Positions 3,879 to 20,690 of a DNA stretch of 33,440 nt are shown here, piece after piece; positions within the stretch are counted from its first letter, which is position 1; each line of letters begins with the position of its first letter. Source of the stretch: Mesobacillus subterraneus (GTDB lineage Bacteria > Bacillota > Bacilli > Bacillales > Cytobacillaceae). The notes beneath the pieces are model-generated. The model saw only the letters and a list, made by a program, of their open reading frames with translations. It did no database searches and was not told where the DNA came from. The DNA lies in assembly GCF_000934845.1 (NCBI RefSeq), contig NZ_JXIQ01000017.1, positions 1-33,440 of the forward strand, read 5' to 3'. A program made the translations under genes and the position numbers.

Positions 3879-3937
3879 GGGGGTCTGACCCCCAGTCAAT
3901 TAACGCAGTAAAGCGCTGGGGGCCAGACCCCGTTCTA
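3879..3937. repeat. 59-bp palindromic REP-like repeat, copy A
   Basis: This unit is almost identical to 10848-10906. It starts with the near-palindrome GGGGTCTGACCCC, has a shared core AATTAACGCAGTAAAGCGCTGGGGG, given here as AATTAACGCAGTAAAG then CGCTGGGGG, and ends CAGACCCCGTTCTA. The left arm (GGGTCTGACCCCCAG) and right arm (CTGGGGGCCAGACCC) are inverted repeats, so the whole unit could fold into a long hairpin. It lies directly after the rbs terminator and 11 bp from the 3' end of the Fic gene. Its origin as a REP/MITE-like mobile repeat is inferred. Confidence 0.85.
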
Positions 3938-3948
3938 TGTGTCTTGGC

Positions 3949-4896
3949 TTATTGGGTCATGATTCGAATGAGGTCGTATTGGTAATAGCGTCTGTTTCTT
4001 TTGCGATTGTCACCGAAGATCATGCCTAGTTCGACTAGTTGGGCTAGGCTCTTTCGGATGGTTGCAGGCGCCAATTCTGTCGTTTGTTCTAATTGATGCA
4101 CGGTTGCAATTGGATGGGTAAACAGGGCCCCCCATACTTTTTTAGTAGATGGTTGCTGAAGTTTTCCCATTCCTTGATGATAGAGTCTTTCTGCTTGATC
4201 CAATTTTTCATAATGGTGTTCGGACATTCTGATGGTTGCGTCGAGGAAGAAGTGAATCCAACTTTTCCAATCAGGTTCCTTTTTGTCAATTCCACGAACA
4301 CCATTTAACATCGCATAATATCGAAACTTCTCGCGTTCAAGTTCTTCACTTAAGAAAAAGAAGGGAGAATCAATTCGTTTCGTTTGAAGCAAGTAAAGAA
4401 CAATCAAAATCCTGCCGAGTCGGCCATTGCCGTCAAGGAAGGGATGGATGGATTCGAACTGGGCATGGATGATGGCCGCTTTGATCAATGGATGAATGGT
4501 ATCAATGTCTTCTTCAAGATAAGGGTGACCATTTATATACCTTTCAAGGTTTGTCATATATTGGCCCATCAACTGCGGCTCTGGTGGAACATAAGATGCG
4601 TCCTTCAATTCATTAGTGGGTCCGATAAAATTTTGAATTTTGCGATACTCACCAGCGGCACTTGTTGCACCCCTAGCATTTTCCATCAAGAGTTGATGTA
4701 AATTACGGATAAGCCGCTCTGTAAGTGGGTAGCCGATTTGGATGGTTTCGACGCCAACTTTTAAGGCCTGCTGATAATTTCGCACTTCAACCTTTTCCCA
4801 ATCCTGCTGCTCATCAATTTTATCTTCCAGCATCTCACTGAAAGTTATTTGTACACCCTCGATTCTGGTAGATTGAACGGACTCGTGGAGAGTCAA
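3949..4896 (-). pseudogene. Fic-domain protein, probably 5'-truncated
   Basis: Fic enzymes transfer AMP or related nucleotide groups to target proteins. The catalytic motif HPFLDGNGRLGR is complete at residues 151-162 of the 315-residue reading frame. The first residues hold STRIEG, matching the inhibitory (S/T)xxxE(G/N) helix of class II Fic proteins, and a winged-helix-like C-terminal segment follows the Fic core. The only in-frame start is a TTG at 4896 with no ribosome binding site. Upstream the frame stays open for about 15 sense codons (reading SPYNIF just before the TTG), then meets a TGA. Related proteins carry roughly 45-60 extra residues before the inhibitory motif. The gene therefore appears to have lost its start. 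A shrunken second copy lies at 20560-20690. If translated from TTG, the catalytic core would still be whole. Confidence 0.65.
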
Positions 4897-5269: not shown

Positions 5270-6946
5270 TCATCCCCATTTTTTCAGTTTTTTAACAATT
5301 GTTGAATGGTCGACTCCGAGATTTTCTGCGGCTTTTCGAATGGAGCTGTGTTTTTGCAAGGCATCGAGGATAAGTCTCTTTTCATATTGTTCGACTCTCT
5401 GCTTTAGATTTAGGGATGTATCGGGTGATGCAAACTTATGAAAATGCGGTGGAAGGTCTTCGGGATCTATTTTAAAGGATGGAACAGACACCACCATGCT
5501 TTCAGCAAGATTTTTTAGTTCTCTTACATTCCCCGGCCAATGGTAGCTTTGCAGTATGGCCTTCGTCTCATCGGATAATAACTTCTCAATATTATAGAGT
5601 CGGCAAAAATGGGTAAAGAAGTGTTCCACCAGGACTTCTATATCTTCTGGCCGTTCTCTTAAAGGTGGTATGTTTAATTCAACTACCTGGAGACGATAGT
5701 ATAAGTCTTCTCTGAATCTACCTTGCTCCACCAATTCTTTTAAATCTCTGTTGGTTGCAGAAATTATCCTGATATTTAATTGTTTTATCTTACTGCTTCC
5801 CACTCGCTGAATTTGTTTTTCCTGCAGTACCCTTAAGAGTTTTACCTGCAATGATAATGGCAATTCACCTACCTCGTCTAAAAGGACAGTACCATGGTCA
5901 GCGAGCTCTAGTAAACCAATTTTCCCCTCAAGTCTTGCACCAGTAAAAGCACCTTTTTCATAACCAAAAAGCTCTGATTCTAAAAGATGTTCTGGTATGG
6001 CACCACAGTTTATCTTTATGAACGGCTTGTCCTTCCGGTTGCTTTCATGATGGATTAAATTTGCAATTACCTCTTTACCAGTACCAGAAGGGCCAGCAAG
6101 AAGAATACTAGTCGGAAAAGCTGCCACCTGTCTGACTTTGGAAATAATTCCTTTCATTTCCCTGCTAGTAAATACAATTCTCTCATCTATTCCTTGCATC
6201 GAATACGAATAGCGGTTCTGGCTGATTTCAGAAAAGCTTTTTGCTTTTTTTAATTCTTTCTTTAGTTCATTCAGTTGGGTTATGTCACGGACACTCGTTA
6301 CGACCATTTGAATATCCCCCGATGCATCAAACACCGGGCTCCCTGTTACAATGACTTCCTTTCTTCCGCCAATATTCTGGAGGATTGAAATTTGCTTTTT
6401 CTTCTCTAAGACGAGCAAAGAAACGGATTTGTCAAAATAACCTTTTTCCATCAAATTTGCCATATGATTTCCTATTAGTTCTTCTCTCTGGAACCCGGTG
6501 ATGTTTTCGTAAGCTGAGTTCACCAATAATGTTTCTCCATCTTTATTGACAACATAGATTCCATCTGTAGAAAACTCGATTATACTCTCCATATTCTTTA
6601 ATATAGACAGGTAATGCTCCATCTGGGAAATATCCTGAATGACACTCACAACACCAATCAATTGACCATCCTGGTACATGGGTGTTCTGTTTACCATGCA
6701 AGGAACACCATTTATATTCATTTTAACACCAATCGTACTTTCACCACTCTCAAGTACTTTTTGCACCTCTGTATTGGGCACAAACTTGTGAATTTTTTCC
6801 CCGGCATATTCATTCTCCTGAATCTTAAGTAGCTTCTGGGCAGAAGCATTCATAAGCATAACGTTGGTATCCTGGTCGACTACAATGATTCCATTCCGCA
6901 TAGATGAAAAAATAACTTCTGGTTCAATCATCACTGACATACCCAT
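5270..6946 (-). CDS. Sigma-54-dependent transcriptional activator (PAS-PAS-AAA+-HTH)
   Basis: Predicted enhancer-binding protein that activates RNA polymerase carrying sigma-54 (SigL) at the divergent promoter upstream of the aldehyde dehydrogenase gene. Two PAS-like sensor domains occupy about residues 8-110 and 118-225. The AAA+ domain spans about 260-490, with Walker A GPSGTGKE (285-292), the sigma-54 contact loop GAFTGA (332-337) and Walker B VLLDEVGEL (354-362). A Fis-type helix-turn-helix fills the last 35 residues. The architecture resembles Bacillus RocR/BkdR/AcoR-like regulators. The ATG at 6946 follows AGGAG at eight bases' spacing. No response-regulator receiver domain is present, so the signal is probably a small molecule sensed by PAS. 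The inducer is unknown; a lactone, hydroxyacid or semialdehyde is a reasonable guess from the neighbours. Confidence 0.92.
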   Translation of the reverse strand: MGMSVMIEPEVIFSSMRNGIIVVDQDTNVMLMNASAQKLLKIQENEYAGEKIHKFVPNTEVQKVLESGESTIGVKMNINGVPCMVNRTPMYQDGQLIGVVSVIQDISQMEHYLSILKNMESIIEFSTDGIYVVNKDGETLLVNSAYENITGFQREELIGNHMANLMEKGYFDKSVSLLVLEKKKQISILQNIGGRKEVIVTGSPVFDASGDIQMVVTSVRDITQLNELKKELKKAKSFSEISQNRYSYSMQGIDERIVFTSREMKGIISKVRQVAAFPTSILLAGPSGTGKEVIANLIHHESNRKDKPFIKINCGAIPEHLLESELFGYEKGAFTGARLEGKIGLLELADHGTVLLDEVGELPLSLQVKLLRVLQEKQIQRVGSSKIKQLNIRIISATNRDLKELVEQGRFREDLYYRLQVVELNIPPLRERPEDIEVLVEHFFTHFCRLYNIEKLLSDETKAILQSYHWPGNVRELKNLAESMVVSVPSFKIDPEDLPPHFHKFASPDTSLNLKQRVEQYEKRLILDALQKHSSIRKAAENLGVDHSTIVKKLKKWG

Positions 6947-6987
6947 TTACTCATCTCCTAGATTAATAGTGAGAATCATCACCAGCT

Positions 6988-7003
6988 GGTGAATTTTATC
7001 ACC
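6988..7003. promoter_or_regulatory. Predicted activator binding site UAS1
   Basis: The 16-bp inverted repeat GGTGAATTTTATCACC has the same layout as UAS2 at 7034. An extra ATCACC half-site at 6978-6983 makes a second overlapping palindrome, TCACCAGCTGGTGA (6979-6992). Its centre is about 133 bp upstream of the predicted start of transcription, a normal distance for a sigma-54 enhancer. It also lies 42-57 bp upstream of the activator's own ATG, so it could affect the activator's expression. Confidence 0.65.
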
Positions 7004-7033
7004 ATATATATTAAGCAATTTTAGGCTAATTAC

Positions 7034-7049
7034 GGTGATGTATATCACC
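7034..7049. promoter_or_regulatory. Predicted activator binding site UAS2
   Basis: The 16-bp inverted repeat GGTGATGTATATCACC matches UAS1 in both arms (GGTGAW and ATCACC with a four-base spacer). It begins 46 bp downstream of UAS1, and its centre is about 87 bp upstream of the predicted transcription start. The pair of matched sites next to a sigma-54 promoter is typical of enhancer-binding protein targets. Confidence 0.68.
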
Positions 7050-7101
7050 ATTATTATATTTCATTTAATTGAATTTTACGAATAAATAAGCGTTTATTTG
7101 T

Positions 7102-7117
7102 TTGGCATAAATCTTGC
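7102..7117 (+). promoter_or_regulatory. Sigma-54 (-24/-12) promoter
   Basis: TTGGCATAAATCTTGC matches the sigma-54 consensus TTGGCAC-N5-TTGC with a single mismatch. GG (7104-7105) and GC (7116-7117) have the required 12-base spacing. Transcription should start near 7129, just before the ribosome binding site AGGAGG at 7131. This also rules out the longer aldehyde dehydrogenase frame that begins at 7098, because its start would lie within the promoter. Confidence 0.88.
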
Positions 7118-7142
7118 AATAAATATAAGCAGGAGGTGTAGT

Positions 7143-8570
7143 ATGGAAAAAAAAGGATTGTTTATTAATGGGAAGTATGAAATTAAAGAGAGTACTTATG
7201 TACTGCTGTCACCTTACAGCGGAGAAACTCTAGCACAAATTAGTAAGGCTAACAAGGACGATGTAAAGCGAGCGATTGATGGAGCGGAATCTACCTATCA
7301 TGTATTTAAGAGTATGCCAGCACATAAACGCTCCGAAATTCTTTTTAATGTGGTAAAAATTCTAAATGAACGCAAGGAGGAGATGGCAAAAGTTATTGCA
7401 AAGGAGGCTGGGAAACCTATCCGTACAGCACGAGGTGAAATAGAGAGAACCGTTGTTACGTATCAATTTGCTGCAGAAGAAGCCAAGCGGATATATGGCG
7501 AAACAATACCTATGGATGCAGCCCCTGGCGGAGAGAATCGGGTAGGTTTTACATGGAGAGAGCCATTAGGTGTCGTCGTAGCAATAAGTCCATTTAACTT
7601 TCCGTTTAATCTTGTTGCCCACAAGCTTGGACCAGCATTTGCTGCAGGAAATACTGTAGTGCTAAAGCCGGCTGAGCAGACACCACTAAGTGCCCTGTTG
7701 ATCGCTGAAATTTTTCAAAAGGCTGGTCTTCCTGATGGAGCACTTCAAGTCGTTACAGGAAGTGGCAGTGAATTAAGTGACTCTTTGATTCAAGACAGCA
7801 GAATCAAAAAAGTAACCTTTACTGGCAGTGCAAAGGTAGGAAAGTTGATCAAAGAAAAAGCCGGTTTGCGTAAAGTGACACTTGAACTCGGATCAAACTC
7901 TGGGTTAATAATTGAACCGGACATTCCTTTGGAAAAAATCATAAAGAGATGTGTAGAAGGTGCTTTTGCGTTTTCCGGGCAGGTTTGCATATCTTTACAA
8001 CGCATATATGTACATGAAGATATTTATGATGATTTTTGTAAGCGTTTTATCGAAGAAGCAAAGAATCTGAAAGTTGGAGATCCGCTTGAAGACACGACTG
8101 ATATCAGTGCCATGATCAGCGGGCGTGAAGTCGACCGAATCGAATCCTGGATAACTGAAGCCAAAAAACAAGGTGCCGAGGTAGGATTGGGGGGAGTAAG
8201 AGAAGGAACTATTTTCCCGCCAACTGTCCTTACAAAGGTAACAAATGATATGGCCGTATCTTGCCAAGAAACATTTGCACCTGTGGTTTCGATTGTTCCA
8301 TACAGTAAGCTTGATGAAGCAATTGAAATTGTCAACGATTCTGTATACGGCCTGAATGTCGGTATTTACACGCAAAATATATCCAATGCCTTTCATGCTG
8401 CGAGACAACTTCATTCAGGAGGAGTGATTATCAATGATATTCCGACCTTCAGGCTGGACCACATGCCATATGGTGGAGTTAAAGAGAGTGGATATGGTCG
8501 TGAAGGAATAAAGTATGCTGTTGAAGAAATGACTGAACTAAAATTCGTTACGATTAAAACCGTACTGTAG
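7143..8570 (+). CDS. NAD(P)-dependent aldehyde dehydrogenase, possibly succinate-semialdehyde dehydrogenase
   Basis: Oxidises an aldehyde to the acid. The 475 residues fit the ALDH superfamily. Visible motifs are SPFNFPFN (Asn152, stabilises the intermediate), FTGSAKVG (cofactor loop), TLELGSNS (Glu248, general base) and FSGQVCISLQ (Cys282, nucleophile). The ATG at 7143 has an AGGAGGTG ribosome binding site; an upstream ATG at 7098 would precede transcription start. It is the first gene of an operon with a lactonase and an iron-type alcohol dehydrogenase, and sits behind the sigma-54 promoter. From that context the likely substrate is succinate semialdehyde, by analogy with BlcA/AttK of Agrobacterium. 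The sequence alone does not fix the substrate. Confidence 0.9.
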   Translation: MEKKGLFINGKYEIKESTYVLLSPYSGETLAQISKANKDDVKRAIDGAESTYHVFKSMPAHKRSEILFNVVKILNERKEEMAKVIAKEAGKPIRTARGEIERTVVTYQFAAEEAKRIYGETIPMDAAPGGENRVGFTWREPLGVVVAISPFNFPFNLVAHKLGPAFAAGNTVVLKPAEQTPLSALLIAEIFQKAGLPDGALQVVTGSGSELSDSLIQDSRIKKVTFTGSAKVGKLIKEKAGLRKVTLELGSNSGLIIEPDIPLEKIIKRCVEGAFAFSGQVCISLQRIYVHEDIYDDFCKRFIEEAKNLKVGDPLEDTTDISAMISGREVDRIESWITEAKKQGAEVGLGGVREGTIFPPTVLTKVTNDMAVSCQETFAPVVSIVPYSKLDEAIEIVNDSVYGLNVGIYTQNISNAFHAARQLHSGGVIINDIPTFRLDHMPYGGVKESGYGREGIKYAVEEMTELKFVTIKTVL

Positions 8571-8585
8571 GAGGATTGATTCAAA

Positions 8586-9434
8586 ATGACAAATATTATT
8601 AAACCAAATCCAAAACTGTATGTTATGGATAATGGGCGAATGAGAATGGATAAGAATTGGATGATTGCAATGCATAATCCAGCAACAGTAGACAACCCCA
8701 ATGCATCGGCTGAATTTGTTGAATTCCCGGTATATACAGTACTGATAGACCACCCAGATGGAAAAATCCTCTTTGATACAGCTTGCAATCCAAACTCAAT
8801 GGGACAAAATGGTCGCTGGGGCGAAGCTACCCAGAAAATGTTCCCTATTGCCATGAGTGAAGAATGCTACCTTCACCACCGCCTTGAACAATTAAATGTC
8901 CGTCCTGAAGAAATTAAATACGTGGTGGCTTCACACCTTCATCTAGACCATGCTGGATGCCTGGAAATGTTTACAAATGCGACAATTATCGTTCATGAAG
9001 ACGAATTGAATGGAACGCTACAGACTTACGCCCGTAATCAAAAAGAAGGGGCCTATGTCTGGGCTGATATTGACGCTTGGATTAAAAACAATCTTCAGTG
9101 GCGCACAATCAAGCGTCAAGAGGATAACCTGAAGCTTGCACCTGGCATCAGTATTCTGAACTTCGGCAGTGGACATGCATGGGGAATGCTTGGGCTTCAT
9201 GTGGAAATGCCTGAAACTGGCGGAATTATTTTGGCTTCAGATGCCATCTATACCGCTGATAGCTTCGGACCACCTGTAAAGCCGCCAGGAATTATCTATG
9301 ACTCACTTGGTTACAACAATGCAGTTGAAAAAATACGGAGAATCGCAAATGAAACTAATTCTCAGGTCTGGTTTGGGCATGATTCGAACCAATTTAAAAC
9401 ATTCCGGAAATCCACTGAGGGCTACTATGAGTAA
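8586..9434 (+). CDS. Metallo-beta-lactamase-fold lactonase (AHL lactonase / BlcC-AttM-like)
   Basis: Predicted to open a lactone ring by hydrolysis. The 282-residue protein has the dinuclear metal site of the N-acyl-homoserine-lactone lactonase family: HLHLDH (His117, His119, Asp121, His122), GSGHAWG (His197), LASDAIY (Asp219) and FGHDSNQF (His265). The end, FRKSTEGYYE, resembles the C-terminus of AttM/BlcC. It begins 15 bases after the ALDH stop with ribosome binding site GGAGG. No signal peptide is seen, so it acts in the cytoplasm. Linkage to ALDH and ADH genes suggests gamma-butyrolactone or a related lactone as the physiological substrate. Quorum-signal lactones are an alternative. Confidence 0.85.
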   Translation: MTNIIKPNPKLYVMDNGRMRMDKNWMIAMHNPATVDNPNASAEFVEFPVYTVLIDHPDGKILFDTACNPNSMGQNGRWGEATQKMFPIAMSEECYLHHRLEQLNVRPEEIKYVVASHLHLDHAGCLEMFTNATIIVHEDELNGTLQTYARNQKEGAYVWADIDAWIKNNLQWRTIKRQEDNLKLAPGISILNFGSGHAWGMLGLHVEMPETGGIILASDAIYTADSFGPPVKPPGIIYDSLGYNNAVEKIRRIANETNSQVWFGHDSNQFKTFRKSTEGYYE

Positions 9435-9516
9435 GGAAGCGTGTCGAAATTTTTTGATATACCACCAATGGGTCAAACTGGTGATAAATCAACATTTATC
9501 CGAGGGAGGGTAATAT

Positions 9517-10722
9517 ATGAGTATTTCAAAATTAGTTTTTCCACCATTAAGTTATACTGGCTGGGGTTCACTTCAAAACCTTGTACCTGAAATAGAAAAA
9601 TACCAGGTTAAAAAAATTCTTGTCGTGACTGATCCAGTGCTTGCACAGATTGGGCTAGTCGATAGAGTAACAGAACCCTTGAAAGAAAACGGCTATGAAG
9701 TGACTCTCTATACTGAAGTCATCCCAGAGCCTCCACTTGAGGTGGGAGAGAAGCTGGTCTCTTTTACAAGAGAAGGCGAGTTTGATATGATCGTGGGTGT
9801 TGGCGGCGGAAGTGCACTTGACCTAGCAAAGCTAGCCGCAGTGATGGCCGATCATGAAGGACCTGCTGCGGACTATTTGAATCTAAGCGGCACTAAAAAA
9901 ATAGAGAAAAAAGGCTTGCCCAAAATCCTCATTCCTACTACTTCAGGAACAGGTTCAGAAGTAACTAATATATCCGTTCTTTCACTTGAAACAACCAAGG
10001 ATGTTGTCACCCATGATCACTTGCTCGCAGATGTGGCGATTGTCGATCCTGAACTAACCCTGTCCGTCCCTGCGCGGGTTACAGCAGCCACTGGCATTGA
10101 TGCTCTAACACATGCAGTCGAAGCATATGTATCAGTGAATGCGAGCTTAACAACAGATGGACTGGCTCTTCAAGCGATTCGATTGATTTCTCGTTCTTTA
10201 CGCAAAGCAGTTGAAGACGGAAGCGACAAACAGGCTCGAATAGACATGAGCAATGGAAGCTATATTGCCGGTCTTGCCTTCTTTAACGCAGGAGTTGCCG
10301 GGGTACATGCACTTGCATATCCTCTTGGCGGCCAATTCCATTTAGCCCATGGCGAATCAAACGCGGTCCTGTTGCCATACGTAATGGGTTATATTCGGAA
10401 AAGCTGTCAAACTAGAATGGCCAACATCCTGAATGCATTAGGAGGCAACTCGGATTTCCTATCAGATGAAGAAGCTTCTTACAGATGTGTGGAAGAACTG
10501 GAACGTCTGGTAAAAGATGTAGGCATCCCCGCAACTTTATCAGAATTCAACATCCCTGATTCAGCTCTCGAAAGCCTTACCCAGGATGGAGCGAAACAAA
10601 AGAGATTGCTCTCCAGAAGCCCTCTTCCATTAGAAGAAAAAGACATCAGGGAGATTTATAAAGCCGCTTTTAAAGGTAAAATTACTGAACCTGAAACAGA
10701 GCGAGTGTATAGAAAAAGCTAA
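9517..10722 (+). CDS. Iron-containing (group III) alcohol dehydrogenase, possibly 4-hydroxybutyrate dehydrogenase
   Basis: Interconverts an alcohol and an aldehyde using NAD(P). The 401 residues show the group III ADH pattern: GVGGGSALDLAK (nucleotide binding, about 94-105), PTTSGTGSEVT (140-150), and metal ligands Asp195 and His199 (GIDALTHAVEAY), His264 (GVHALAYPLGG) and His278 (HLAHGES). It lies 82 bp after the lactonase with its own GGGAGGG ribosome binding site. In the proposed pathway it oxidises gamma-hydroxybutyrate to succinate semialdehyde, the role of BlcB/AttL in Agrobacterium. The exact substrate is inferred from context only. Confidence 0.9.
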   Translation: MSISKLVFPPLSYTGWGSLQNLVPEIEKYQVKKILVVTDPVLAQIGLVDRVTEPLKENGYEVTLYTEVIPEPPLEVGEKLVSFTREGEFDMIVGVGGGSALDLAKLAAVMADHEGPAADYLNLSGTKKIEKKGLPKILIPTTSGTGSEVTNISVLSLETTKDVVTHDHLLADVAIVDPELTLSVPARVTAATGIDALTHAVEAYVSVNASLTTDGLALQAIRLISRSLRKAVEDGSDKQARIDMSNGSYIAGLAFFNAGVAGVHALAYPLGGQFHLAHGESNAVLLPYVMGYIRKSCQTRMANILNALGGNSDFLSDEEASYRCVEELERLVKDVGIPATLSEFNIPDSALESLTQDGAKQKRLLSRSPLPLEEKDIREIYKAAFKGKITEPETERVYRKS

Positions 10723-10772
10723 AAATTTAATAGGAACTTTATTAAGCGAACAAACGGAAGTTTTACGAAAAG

Positions 10773-10815
10773 AAGGCACAAGGAGCGGTTTTAACTGCGC
10801 CTCGTGCCTTTTGAT
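10773..10815 (+). terminator. Terminator of the lactone operon
   Basis: The imperfect stem AAGGCACAAGGAGC (10773-10786) pairs with GCGCCTCGTGCCTT (10797-10810), 12 of 14 positions, and is followed by TTGATTT. It lies 50 bp after the alcohol dehydrogenase stop. Confidence 0.75.
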
Positions 10816-10847
10816 TTAAGATTCTTATTCCGCACCCAGGGGGCCAA

Positions 10848-10906
10848 GGGGGTCTGACCCCCTGGGAATTAACGCAGTAAAGCGCTGGGGGTCAGACCCC
10901 GTTCTA
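10848..10906. repeat. 59-bp palindromic REP-like repeat, copy B
   Basis: Nearly identical to 3879-3937, in the same orientation. The shared parts are GGGGGTCTGACCCCC, AATTAACGCAGTAAAGCGCT and CAGACCCCGTTCTA; the two copies differ at about four positions next to the first palindrome and one in the second arm. It directly abuts the broken 5' end of the PTS gene: coding-like sequence resumes within a few bases of its right edge. Confidence 0.85.
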
Positions 10907-10908
10907 GC

Positions 10909-12929
10909 CCCCATTCTATCCTTGATCCAGACCAGTTCACAGGCTTGCAGAATCCAGTCATAGCCAGATTAAGTGAAGGGATGCTTCAGGTCGGGCTGAG
11001 TTTATTTACCAATCTGCCGATTATTTTTGCATTGGGCATTGCCATTGGCTTATCGGGAGGATCAGGTATTGCAGCCCTTGCGGCGTTGCTTGGCTATATC
11101 ATCATGAACCAAACGATTTCTTTTGCCTTGAACATCACCCCCGAAATGGCAGCAAAGAGCGGGGAATATGGGATGGCATTGGGAATACCGACCCTTGGAC
11201 GGGGGTTCTTGGCGGTATAGTTGTTGGTCTGCTTGCGGTGTATATCTATCGCAAGTTCCATAAGTTTCAGCCGCTAGAAATGCTGGGCTTTTTCGCTGGT
11301 GATCGTTCAGTTGGGATTGCCATGGTTTTCGCTTCCATCGGTTTGGCATTTGCCATGATGCTGATCTGGCCGCCAATCCAAGGTGTCATCAACAAAACGG
11401 CTGAAATCATCGCATCTGATGCGACAAATCCTATTTATATCGGACTGTACGGCGCACTTGAGAGGTTGCTGATTCCGACGGGCTTGCATCACATCTGGTA
11501 TGCACCATTCCTGTGGACGGGGCTCGGCGGAACTGCGGAAGTTGCCGGGAAAATTGTTTCCGGTGACCAGTATTTATTCCTTGCACAAATTGCTGCCGGA
11601 GTAGAAGTAACAGCTGGACGTTTCATGGCAGGAAAGTTCCTAATCATCATGTTTGGCTTGCTGGGTGCGGCGCTTGCCATGTACAAACGAGCAGATGCCG
11701 ACAAGAAGCCAATCGTAAAAGGGATGTTGATTGCTGCGGCAGGGACGGCTTTCCTGACGGGAATTACGGAACCGATTGAGTTCACATTCCTGTTTGTCGC
11801 ACCCTTGTTATATGTATTGCATGCAATTTTAACAGGAATTTCATTTGCTGCAGCCTACATCCTCGATGTCCATCTTGGCTGGGCAGGCGGCTCCGGATTG
11901 ATTGATTTCATCCTTGTGAATGTTTTACCTGGAACACCGAGATGGTGGATGAATTTCGTGCTTGGTGCCGCGTTCTTTGCGATTTACTATTTTACCTTCA
12001 GCTTCGCGATCAATAAATGGAATATTGCCACTCCAGGACGCGGAGGGCAAGAGGCAAAGCTGTTCACCAGAAATGATTACAACGCGAAGAAAAAAGGCAA
12101 GTCAGGATCTAAGGCAGAGAGGAATAAAGAGTTGGCGCTGCACATCATCACCGCATTAGGCGGGCCACAGAATATAGTGCAAGCCGATGCCTGCTTCACG
12201 CGCTTACGTGTAGAAGTCAAGGAAATCAAGCAAGTGAAAGAAGATGATTTAAAGGCTTTAGGAGCAGCAGGGGTAGTGAAAATCAAGAACAATATCCAGG
12301 CGATTTTCGGTGGGAATTCGGACCTGTATAAAAATGAAATCAATGAACTGCTCCAATCTGATTCGCTAGAGGAAGAACTGTGGGAAGTAGCGGCAGGTCA
12401 AAGCGATCAGCAAGAAAAAGCGGTTAAAGTAACACCTGTGTTAAGCGTGGACTTTAGTGAAATTGGTTCACCGATGGCAGGAAGGGTGATTCCCCTTTCA
12501 GAGGTTCCGGATCCTGTTTTTGCAGGCAAGATGATGGGCGATGGTTTCGCAATCGAGCCTTCAAAAGGAAAGGTTGTCTCACCAGTAAATGGAGAAATCA
12601 CTTCGATTTTCCCGACAAAGCATGCGATTGGGATCACATCTGAAGAAGGACTTGAAGTACTGGTTCACGTTGGCATCAACACGGTGAACCTCGATGGAAA
12701 AGGCTTCGATCTGTTCGTAAAAGAAGGCCAACAGGTAACCAGGGGACAAGAACTGTTACAGGCAGACATCGACTACATCAATGAACATGCAACATCCAGC
12801 ACCACCATTATCGCTTTCACCAATCTGAAAAGTGATGAAGAAATCAAATTAACCAAAGCAAATCAAGTAAAACATGGCGAAACCCATTTGATTTCCCTTC
12901 AGCACAAGCAGCAAAAAGGACATAGGTAA
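10909..12929 (+). pseudogene. Glucose/maltose-family PTS transporter EIICBA, 5'-truncated and frameshifted
   Basis: Remains of a sugar-phosphorylating permease. Domain order is EIIC, EIIB, EIIA. EIIC shows LERLLIPTGLHH and GITEPIEFTFLF. EIIB has the phospho-acceptor Cys in VQADACFTRLRV (Cys319 of the second frame). EIIA has FPTKHAIG and VLVHVGINTV (His462, His477). The NIATPGR linker followed by KLFTRNDY resembles the MalP/alpha-glucoside type, and the EIIA resembles that of PtsG, so the substrate is glucose or an alpha-glucoside. Two lesions are visible. The first EIIC segment (roughly 60 residues) and the start codon are missing, with homologous sequence beginning right beside repeat copy B. 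The frame then breaks at a GGGGG run (11201-11205): 10945-11220 and 11238-12929 are in different frames, and one extra G would join them. It is probably non-functional, although the downstream EIIBA part could be translated if it has a start. Confidence 0.82.
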
Positions 12930-20559: not shown

Positions 20560-20690
20560 CCCCGCTTATTGGGGGTCATGACTAAAATAAGTATAACGTC
20601 TCAGTTTAATCTTCCAGCATCTCACTGAAAGTTATTCGTGTACCCTCGATTCTGGTAGATTGAACGGACTCGTGGAAAGTAGGTAATTGT
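20560..20690 (-). pseudogene. Collapsed second copy of the Fic gene
   Basis: Both ends of the Fic gene at 3949-4896 recur here with the middle deleted. Bases 20563-20587 (GCTTATTGGGGGTCATGAC and following) match the Fic 3' end at 3947-3972, including the codons for LIRIMT. Bases 20608-20681 match the 5' part (4826-4896) almost base for base, reading FHESVQSTRIEG and TRITFSEMLED on the minus strand. About 800 bp of the catalytic region is missing. It is the remnant of a duplicated Fic locus. Loosely similar flanking sequence continues to about 20815. Confidence 0.8.

Follow-up and report, generated by a model that had tools for sequence, protein, structure and literature searches.

A sigma-54-controlled lactonase operon of Bacilli and its probable role in the catabolism of a small gamma-lactone

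For what purpose would a member of Bacillales place a lactonase gene between two dehydrogenase genes behind a sigma-54 promoter? The question is raised by a 33,440-nt stretch of Mesobacillus subterraneus DNA (contig NZ_JXIQ01000017.1, from its first position; hereafter, the window), in which a gene for an enhancer-binding activator diverges from a set of genes for an aldehyde dehydrogenase (ALDH), a lactonase-type metallo-hydrolase and an iron-type alcohol dehydrogenase (ADH). The initial annotation of this DNA had likened the set to the Agrobacterium blcABC/attKLM operon and had attributed its control to sigma-54; the four genes are found where it placed them, with the activator on the opposite strand. 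In our view, the set is likely a catabolic operon under local, sigma-54-dependent regulation that converts a small gamma-lactone, probably gamma-butyrolactone, to succinate. Its genes, promoter and activator sites, the co-occurrence of activator and promoter, and the host sigma-54 are established at the level of sequence. Published systems are cited by PubMed Central (PMC) identifier.

The operon, its promoter and its activator

The activator (558 aa; 5270..6946, minus strand) has the architecture PAS-PAS-AAA+-HTH (HTH, helix-turn-helix). By Pfam it contains the sigma-54 interaction domain PF00158 (234 bits), two PAS stretches, AAA_lid_14 and HTH_50, the HTH being of the Fis type, and the GAFTGA motif is present in its translation. 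The PF00158 domain and the two PAS stretches bear out its earlier description as a PAS-PAS sigma-54 activator; none of the NCBIfam equivalog models was reached, the best being PrdR (483 of 795 bits). On the plus strand follow the ALDH (475 aa; 7143..8570; PF00171, 547 bits), the lactonase of the AhlS/GcL family (282 aa; 8586..9434), assigned by the NF047976 model and its closest structures and matching Lactamase_B in Pfam, and the iron-type (group III) ADH (401 aa; 9517..10722; PF00465/PF25137). The ADH contains the motifs DALTH (195), GVHALA (262) and HLAHG (275), which we take to hold the metal ligands. The most likely start codon of the ALDH gene is ATG 7143, just downstream of AGGAGG; the mechanically called open reading frame began at TTG 7098, and this start is disfavored because the frame would then overlap the promoter.

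The sequence TGGCATAAATCTTGCA at 7103..7118 (plus strand) matches the sigma-54 -24/-12 consensus exactly. Upstream of it lie three palindromes of the form GGTGA-N6-TCACC: the proximal site GGTGATGTATATCACC (7034..7049), exact and with its center about 61 bp upstream of the -24 element, a second exact site GGTGAATTTTATCACC (6988..7003), and a distal site AGTGAGAATCATCACC (6968..6983) with one mismatch. Taken alone, the window provides weak evidence for the promoter, as the pattern with at most one mismatch occurs 4 times against 3.1 expected. That the promoter at 7103..7118 is real is settled, as far as sequences can settle it, by comparison across loci. For this comparison we used the best 80 of 126 lactonase relatives from named genomes together with the window, 81 loci in total (given below, where needed, as L numbers), with locus counts based on tblastn positions; the best 16-mer no more than 260 bp from the first gene was scored, and an activator was considered present given a tblastn relative of more than 300 aa.

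The full 11/11 promoter match was found in 34 of the 36 loci with an activator (35 and the window), the remaining two scoring 10/11 (L029) and 9/11 (L019), and a match of at least 10/11 in none of the 45 loci lacking it (Fisher p 8e-21, uncorrected for kinship). The ALDH gene of L019 is decayed, and its true intergenic region, viewed after the count, contains three activator sites and a full 11/11 promoter match, so that re-centering this locus gives 35 of 36. At least two activator sites with no more than one mismatch each precede 30 of the 32 operons with a divergent activator (0.002 per locus in shuffles; L019 and L029 are once more the exceptions) and three of the four with the activator on the same strand, while only one of the 45 loci without an activator has any such site. 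The proximal site is centered 59–62 bp from the -24 element in 25 of 30 cases, and at 49–52 or 96 bp in the remaining five.

A pattern combining activator sites and promoter matched 8 times in 7 of the 193 genomes of the host family, and its reversed control never. Four matches are located at this operon, three beside a paralogue of the activator and one elsewhere; the exact combined pattern is absent from three of the seven lactonase-bearing genomes of the family (G044, G045, G075). At the three paralogue loci (L095, L096, L097), the activator is 45–46% identical, has the same sites and promoter, and is followed by what looks by eye like an enoyl-CoA hydratase gene. The 3.9-Mb host genome contains four exact activator sites (three in the reversed control), two of them in this promoter; the 3-kb loci around the other two have no exact sigma-54 promoter and thus yield no further regulon members. 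The host encodes one RpoN (a single PF04552 match, 212 bits), and in four Paenibacillus loci (L024, L026, L027, L031) a gene of the rpoN cluster adjoins the activator, the family model having been checked for L026. Thus, promoter, activator sites, co-occurrence and host RpoN together uphold the proposed sigma-54 control.

The ALDH and lactonase genes are separated by 15 nt in the window, and by 15–32 nt in 25 activator loci outside it, one of which has an ALDH remnant. The lactonase-ADH gap of 82 nt exceeds the 16–38 nt seen in 29 such relatives (by tblastn ends in both comparisons), so that co-transcription of the ADH gene in this genome, though likely, is less plain than in the others. A scan of 6900–10940 for sigma-70 promoters gave 5 against 8.6 expected, and one for terminators gave 6 against 3.3 (standard deviation 1.9), three of the six being the activator palindromes and none lying 3' of the ADH gene; an Rfam scan of the window gave no match.

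Variants of the operon across Bacilli

The operon is conserved and is present in many genera of Bacilli. The arrangement of activator, ALDH, lactonase and iron-type ADH (type A) accounts for 25 of the 81 loci, including the window; two of these contigs (L024, L033) end before the ADH gene. Seven loci, including that of the species from which GcL derives (L025, activator-lactonase-ADH), are similar and have no intact ALDH gene (type B). In seven loci from Lysinibacillus and Sporosarcina (type C), a LacI-type regulator accompanies an ALDH that is 49–54% identical, the lactonase and the iron-type ADH. In three loci from Chryseomicrobium and Tetzosporium (type D; L048, L049, L060), a LacI-type regulator is combined with the lactonase, the iron-type ADH and a GabD-type ALDH. 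Finally, four loci from Neobacillus and Aneurinibacillus (type E; L066, L068, L075, L077) have the activator, the lactonase, a zinc-type ADH and a GabD-type ALDH. The LacI model was checked on L045 and the zinc-type ADH model on L066, other type assignments being made by clustering. In the lactonase tree, types C, D and E are each set off by a well-supported branch (support 99–100; a quick tree with SH-aLRT values only). Since type E retains the activator type, the promoter and the sites of type A, the regulator stays in place while the ADH and the ALDH are exchanged for analogues.

The other 35 loci contain neither the activator nor a gene of the LacI cluster, and in 10 of them an iron-type ADH adjoins the lactonase. 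One, a contig fragment (L020), has the order lactonase, iron-type ADH, GabD-type ALDH, the latter 51% identical to BlcA over 314 residues. At 13 loci, mostly from Paenibacillus (L046, L058, L072, L074 and nine more), the lactonase diverges from a gene of the HxlR cluster (model checked for L046), a third possible control of the same lactonase. In nine loci from Planococcus and Planomicrobium, the lactonase is situated 3' of an aspartokinase-like gene; in L043 (3154–10046) and similar loci of these genera, Pfam places a homoserine dehydrogenase, a pyridoxal-phosphate enzyme and a GHMP kinase near it, and the presence of homoserine genes beside a lactonase of this kind may or may not be meaningful. 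Halalkalibacter nanhaiisediminis (L010, 1583–6347) has two tandem activators and a second iron-type ADH (46%) beside the operon. In two Fictibacillus loci (L014, L016), a lactonase-ADH pair without activator diverges from a GntP-type permease (Pfam) and a short-chain dehydrogenase that by eye resembles 3-hydroxybutyrate dehydrogenase.

The proposed route and its alternatives

For the substrate, the inducer and the direction of each reaction we infer the following scheme. The PAS-PAS activator would sit on the palindromes, whose distances from the downstream -24 element are about 61, 107 and 127 bp, its PAS domains would sense an intermediate of the pathway, most likely succinate semialdehyde or 4-hydroxybutyrate, and the activator would then drive the sigma-54 RNA polymerase. 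The lactonase would hydrolyze the ring of gamma-butyrolactone (or of a closely related small gamma-lactone), giving 4-hydroxybutyrate; the iron-type ADH, a proposed 4-hydroxybutyrate dehydrogenase, would oxidize the latter to succinate semialdehyde; and the ALDH, a proposed dehydrogenase of succinate semialdehyde or a related omega-semialdehyde, would yield succinate. A pathway intermediate as the inducer is suggested by analogy with GabR and BlcR: GabR of Bacillus thuringiensis is a PAS activator that responds to gamma-aminobutyrate (GABA) and succinic semialdehyde (PMC4279683), and gamma-butyrolactone, 4-hydroxybutyrate and succinate semialdehyde all stimulate blcABC, with the last perhaps being the only true inducer (PMC5924552).

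Three lines of evidence converge on a C4 semialdehyde, none of them being proof. The first is the replacement of the ALDH. The type D and E enzymes that were measured (L048, L060, L066, L075) are 54–55% identical to BlcA, and the GabD-type succinate-semialdehyde dehydrogenase (SSADH) characteristic of blcABC is thus present in L048, which passes the SSADH cut-off (680 vs. 646 bits), and nearly so in L066, just below it (636).

The second is a paralogous ALDH of the host, 57% identical to that of the operon and encoded directly behind GabT (561 bits, cut-off 507), in a cluster that also includes lysine 2,3-aminomutase and the beta-lysine acetyltransferase AblB, both above their cut-offs. Lysine/beta-lysine clusters of this kind lead from beta-lysine through GABA to succinate. 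In 23 of the 30 best loci of the family, GabT directly precedes the paralogous ALDH. These 23 comprise all 22 loci with an identity of at least 71%, 20 of them from the genus of the host, and one of the eight loci at 67–69%, where GabT is a fragment. Among the seven loci lacking GabT, an AblB-like neighbor was seen by eye in all six that were listed. The host cluster itself (L120, contig C41, 1762–12616) has the order kamA-ablB-activator-ALDH-gabT-deacylase-CoA-transferase-aminotransferase, and a sigma-54 consensus (complement, from 3252) is located within the longest kamA frame, upstream of the start of the kamA family match; it is perhaps a sigma-54-controlled route from lysine through GABA to succinate.

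The third line is the biochemistry of relatives. The lactonase passes the AhlS-family model NF047976 (566 bits, cut-off 475), carries the HxHxDH metal motif as HLHLDH at residue 117, and has GcL (6n9q) and AaL (6cgy) as its closest solved structures. AaL hydrolyzes gamma-butyrolactone with kcat/KM 1.4e5 and KM 171 uM, and also accepts gamma-heptanolide, delta-valerolactone and delta-decalactone (PMC6062542), while GcL hydrolyzes various gamma- and delta-lactones (PMC7193897). The closest relatives of the window ALDH in the Protein Data Bank are the lactaldehyde dehydrogenase 3pqa and then ALDH21, 5mz5 (380 bits). ALDH21 is an NADP-dependent SSADH (PMC7823795). Within the host genome, no protein exceeds the cut-off of the SSADH model, and the operon ALDH scores best of four.

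A number of observations weigh against this reading. The window ALDH has lactaldehyde dehydrogenases as both its best model and its best structure, falls below the cut-off of the SSADH model TIGR01780 (398 of 646 bits), and does not have the arginine of the BlcA YRNAG stretch, which we presume to be functional. Its residues R102 and R437 align with arginines of 5mz5 (numbering offset by hand), presumably the counterparts of R121 and R457 of ALDH21, which we take to bind the carboxylate, but the lactaldehyde dehydrogenase 3pqa has arginines there too. In the tree, the GabT-linked ALDHs branch apart from the operon ALDH within one subfamily that is distinct from the GabD type, so that kinship is the sole basis for transferring function. 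The ADH reaches no NCBIfam cut-off, its best model being lactaldehyde reductase; it scores 249 of 500 bits against the 4-hydroxybutyrate dehydrogenase model NF058672, which does not decide its function because BlcB itself scores 228. An intact ALDH gene is missing from the operon in seven of the 36 activator loci, and two of these seven genomes also lack any SSADH-model match above 600 bits. Nothing can be read from the co-occurrence of such matches with operon type, as they are present in 5 of 7 genomes lacking an operon ALDH and in 16 of 24 having one (35 genomes, 17 of them above the curated cut-off, the four type E genomes carrying an SSADH match regardless). As to regulation, the activator-promoter test has only two well-supported independent pairs, too few for significance, and the activator site also serves the paralogous activator, with three of the eight combined matches. 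Lastly, AaL prefers the C4 N-acylhomoserine lactone (C4-AHL; 1.3e6) to gamma-butyrolactone (1.4e5) (PMC6062542), and AidP of Planococcus, adjacent to GcL in the tree of its authors, is inactive on gamma-butyrolactone and homoserine lactone (PMC6240239).

The resemblance of both dehydrogenases to lactaldehyde enzymes, together with the range of gamma- and delta-lactones accepted by AaL and GcL, would be accounted for by a different small lactone or hydroxyacid, i.e., a substituted gamma- or delta-lactone leading to another omega-semialdehyde, or a lactaldehyde-type compound, processed under the same regulation and in the same order of reactions. We consider this rather unlikely, as the replacement by GabD-type ALDHs in two lineages and the GabT linkage of the host paralogue both point to a C4 semialdehyde.

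Substantially less probable is a quorum-quenching or AHL-utilizing operon, in which the lactonase would open AHLs, the dehydrogenases would oxidize the side chain of the N-acylhomoserine and the activator would sense AHLs or their products. The family is known for AHL hydrolysis, the preference of AaL for C4-AHL is about tenfold, and AidP is active on AHLs. However, the acylase or acyl-CoA ligase expected of such an operon has no counterpart in a further gene family recurring across genera beside the activator loci (neighbor families were defined by clustering, not all were named, and shared ones are confined to a few related loci); the GabD-type replacements again argue for a C4 semialdehyde, and the analogous Agrobacterium operon does not respond to AHLs (PMC5924552). 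AHL cleavage is to be expected of the enzyme, but is probably not the purpose of the operon.

An operon in which dehydrogenases and lactonase are merely co-regulated and serve unrelated aldehyde detoxification is very improbable: the 13 HxlR-associated loci, where neither dehydrogenase type adjoins the lactonase, would suit it, but the tight conserved spacing and the replacements that keep the lactonase-ADH-ALDH trio together speak against it.

Relation to known systems, acquisition and implications

The likely conversion of a gamma-lactone to succinate invites comparison with blcABC/attKLM of Agrobacterium fabrum plasmid pAtC58, which likewise combines an ALDH, an iron-type ADH, an MBL lactonase and a divergent regulator, and converts gamma-butyrolactone to 4-hydroxybutyrate and succinate semialdehyde (PMC5924552). 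In strain C58 this regulator is BlcR of the IclR family, whereas in the window it is a sigma-54 activator, and the gene order is ALDH-ADH-lactonase versus ALDH-lactonase-ADH. Identities are low: 29% for the lactonase (of the AttM family there), 32% for the ALDH (BlcA being a GabD-type SSADH) and 38% for the ADH (BlcB). Membership in the blcABC system was rejected: the window has no lactonase of the AttM family (138 bits against the AttM/BlcC model NF045700, cut-off 390, BlcC itself scoring 486), no GabD-type SSADH and no IclR regulator. Of the resemblance proposed initially, the logic of lactone, hydroxyacid, semialdehyde and diacid stands, but the operon is not a rearranged blcABC, as its lactonase and ALDH belong to other subfamilies. 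It works like blcABC but is not a member of that system, being rather a variant under sigma-54 control whose parts come from other subfamilies.

The gab cluster of B. thuringiensis, controlled by GabR, is similar in its PAS-AAA+-HTH activator and sigma-54 promoter (PMC4279683), but contains gab genes and neither lactonase nor ADH, and its activator has one PAS domain rather than two. The qsd operon of Rhodococcus erythropolis also places a lactonase in a regulated catabolic operon that responds to the lactone ring, but combines QsdA with the acyl-CoA ligase QsdC under a TetR-type regulator and is aimed at AHLs (PMC6262395). GcL, AaL, AidP and AhlS are described in the available parts of the literature as quorum-quenching enzymes, and the window protein passes the AhlS-family model; in the literature examined on these lactonases, "operon" appears nowhere in the main text and only once in a reference title. 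The initial annotation knew of no sigma-54-controlled version, and none turned up in the accessible portion of the open-access literature, where neither this operon nor its control is described; subscription journals being mostly uncovered, this absence is weak evidence. Likewise, "lactonase" does not occur in the main text of the B. thuringiensis sigma-54 study or of a wide sigma-54 survey.

Seven of the 193 family genomes contain the lactonase, and within the genus the host is the only one to do so (1 of 21). Direct repeats of 59 nt, 93% identical and 6969 nt apart (3879..3937 and 10848..10906), bracket a 6.97-kb block consisting of a Fic gene and the operon; a 25-base core of the repeat has three copies in the genome at up to two mismatches, two of them at this block. 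Acquisition of the operon by transfer fits these observations. Just behind the right repeat, a phosphotransferase system (PTS) gene of the glucose/N-acetylglucosamine type (10918–12929) is devoid of its N-terminal part, and its reading frame shifts near 11.2 kb, which gives it the appearance of a gene that has decayed at the border of an inserted block. Synteny of this PTS gene gave no readable empty insertion site: 20 of 21 genomes of the genus matched, the proteins of congeners being just 46–47% identical. An 80-nt piece of the Fic gene (4814–4893) recurs at 20601–20680, 15.8 kb away and at 93% identity, perhaps as the remnant of a second Fic gene. In Peribacillus sp. R9-11 (L083), the activator-ALDH-lactonase-ADH set resides on a plasmid, pB.

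A further possibility concerns the signal. What the PAS-PAS activator senses might be an AHL or a gamma-lactone, the latter either closed or opened, in which case a Gram-positive bacterium would use sigma-54 to turn on a pathway that feeds on foreign lactone signals and at the same time quenches quorum sensing; this is speculative and we think it unlikely. If true, the GcL/AhlS lactonases of Bacilli would natively be parts of signal-inducible catabolic operons.

More generally, the native task of GcL, AaL and AidP in Bacilli is left open in the available parts of the literature, and the operon context suggests a feeding role in part of their range: many of their relatives are encoded together with an ADH and an ALDH under sigma-54 control, and in two lineages a GabD-type SSADH takes the place of the ALDH. 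The operon promoter is a candidate inducible promoter. If the catabolic reading with gamma-butyrolactone as the likely substrate is true, the same route would have been built from different enzyme subfamilies under opposite regulatory logic, a BlcR repressor in Agrobacterium and a sigma-54 activator in Bacilli.

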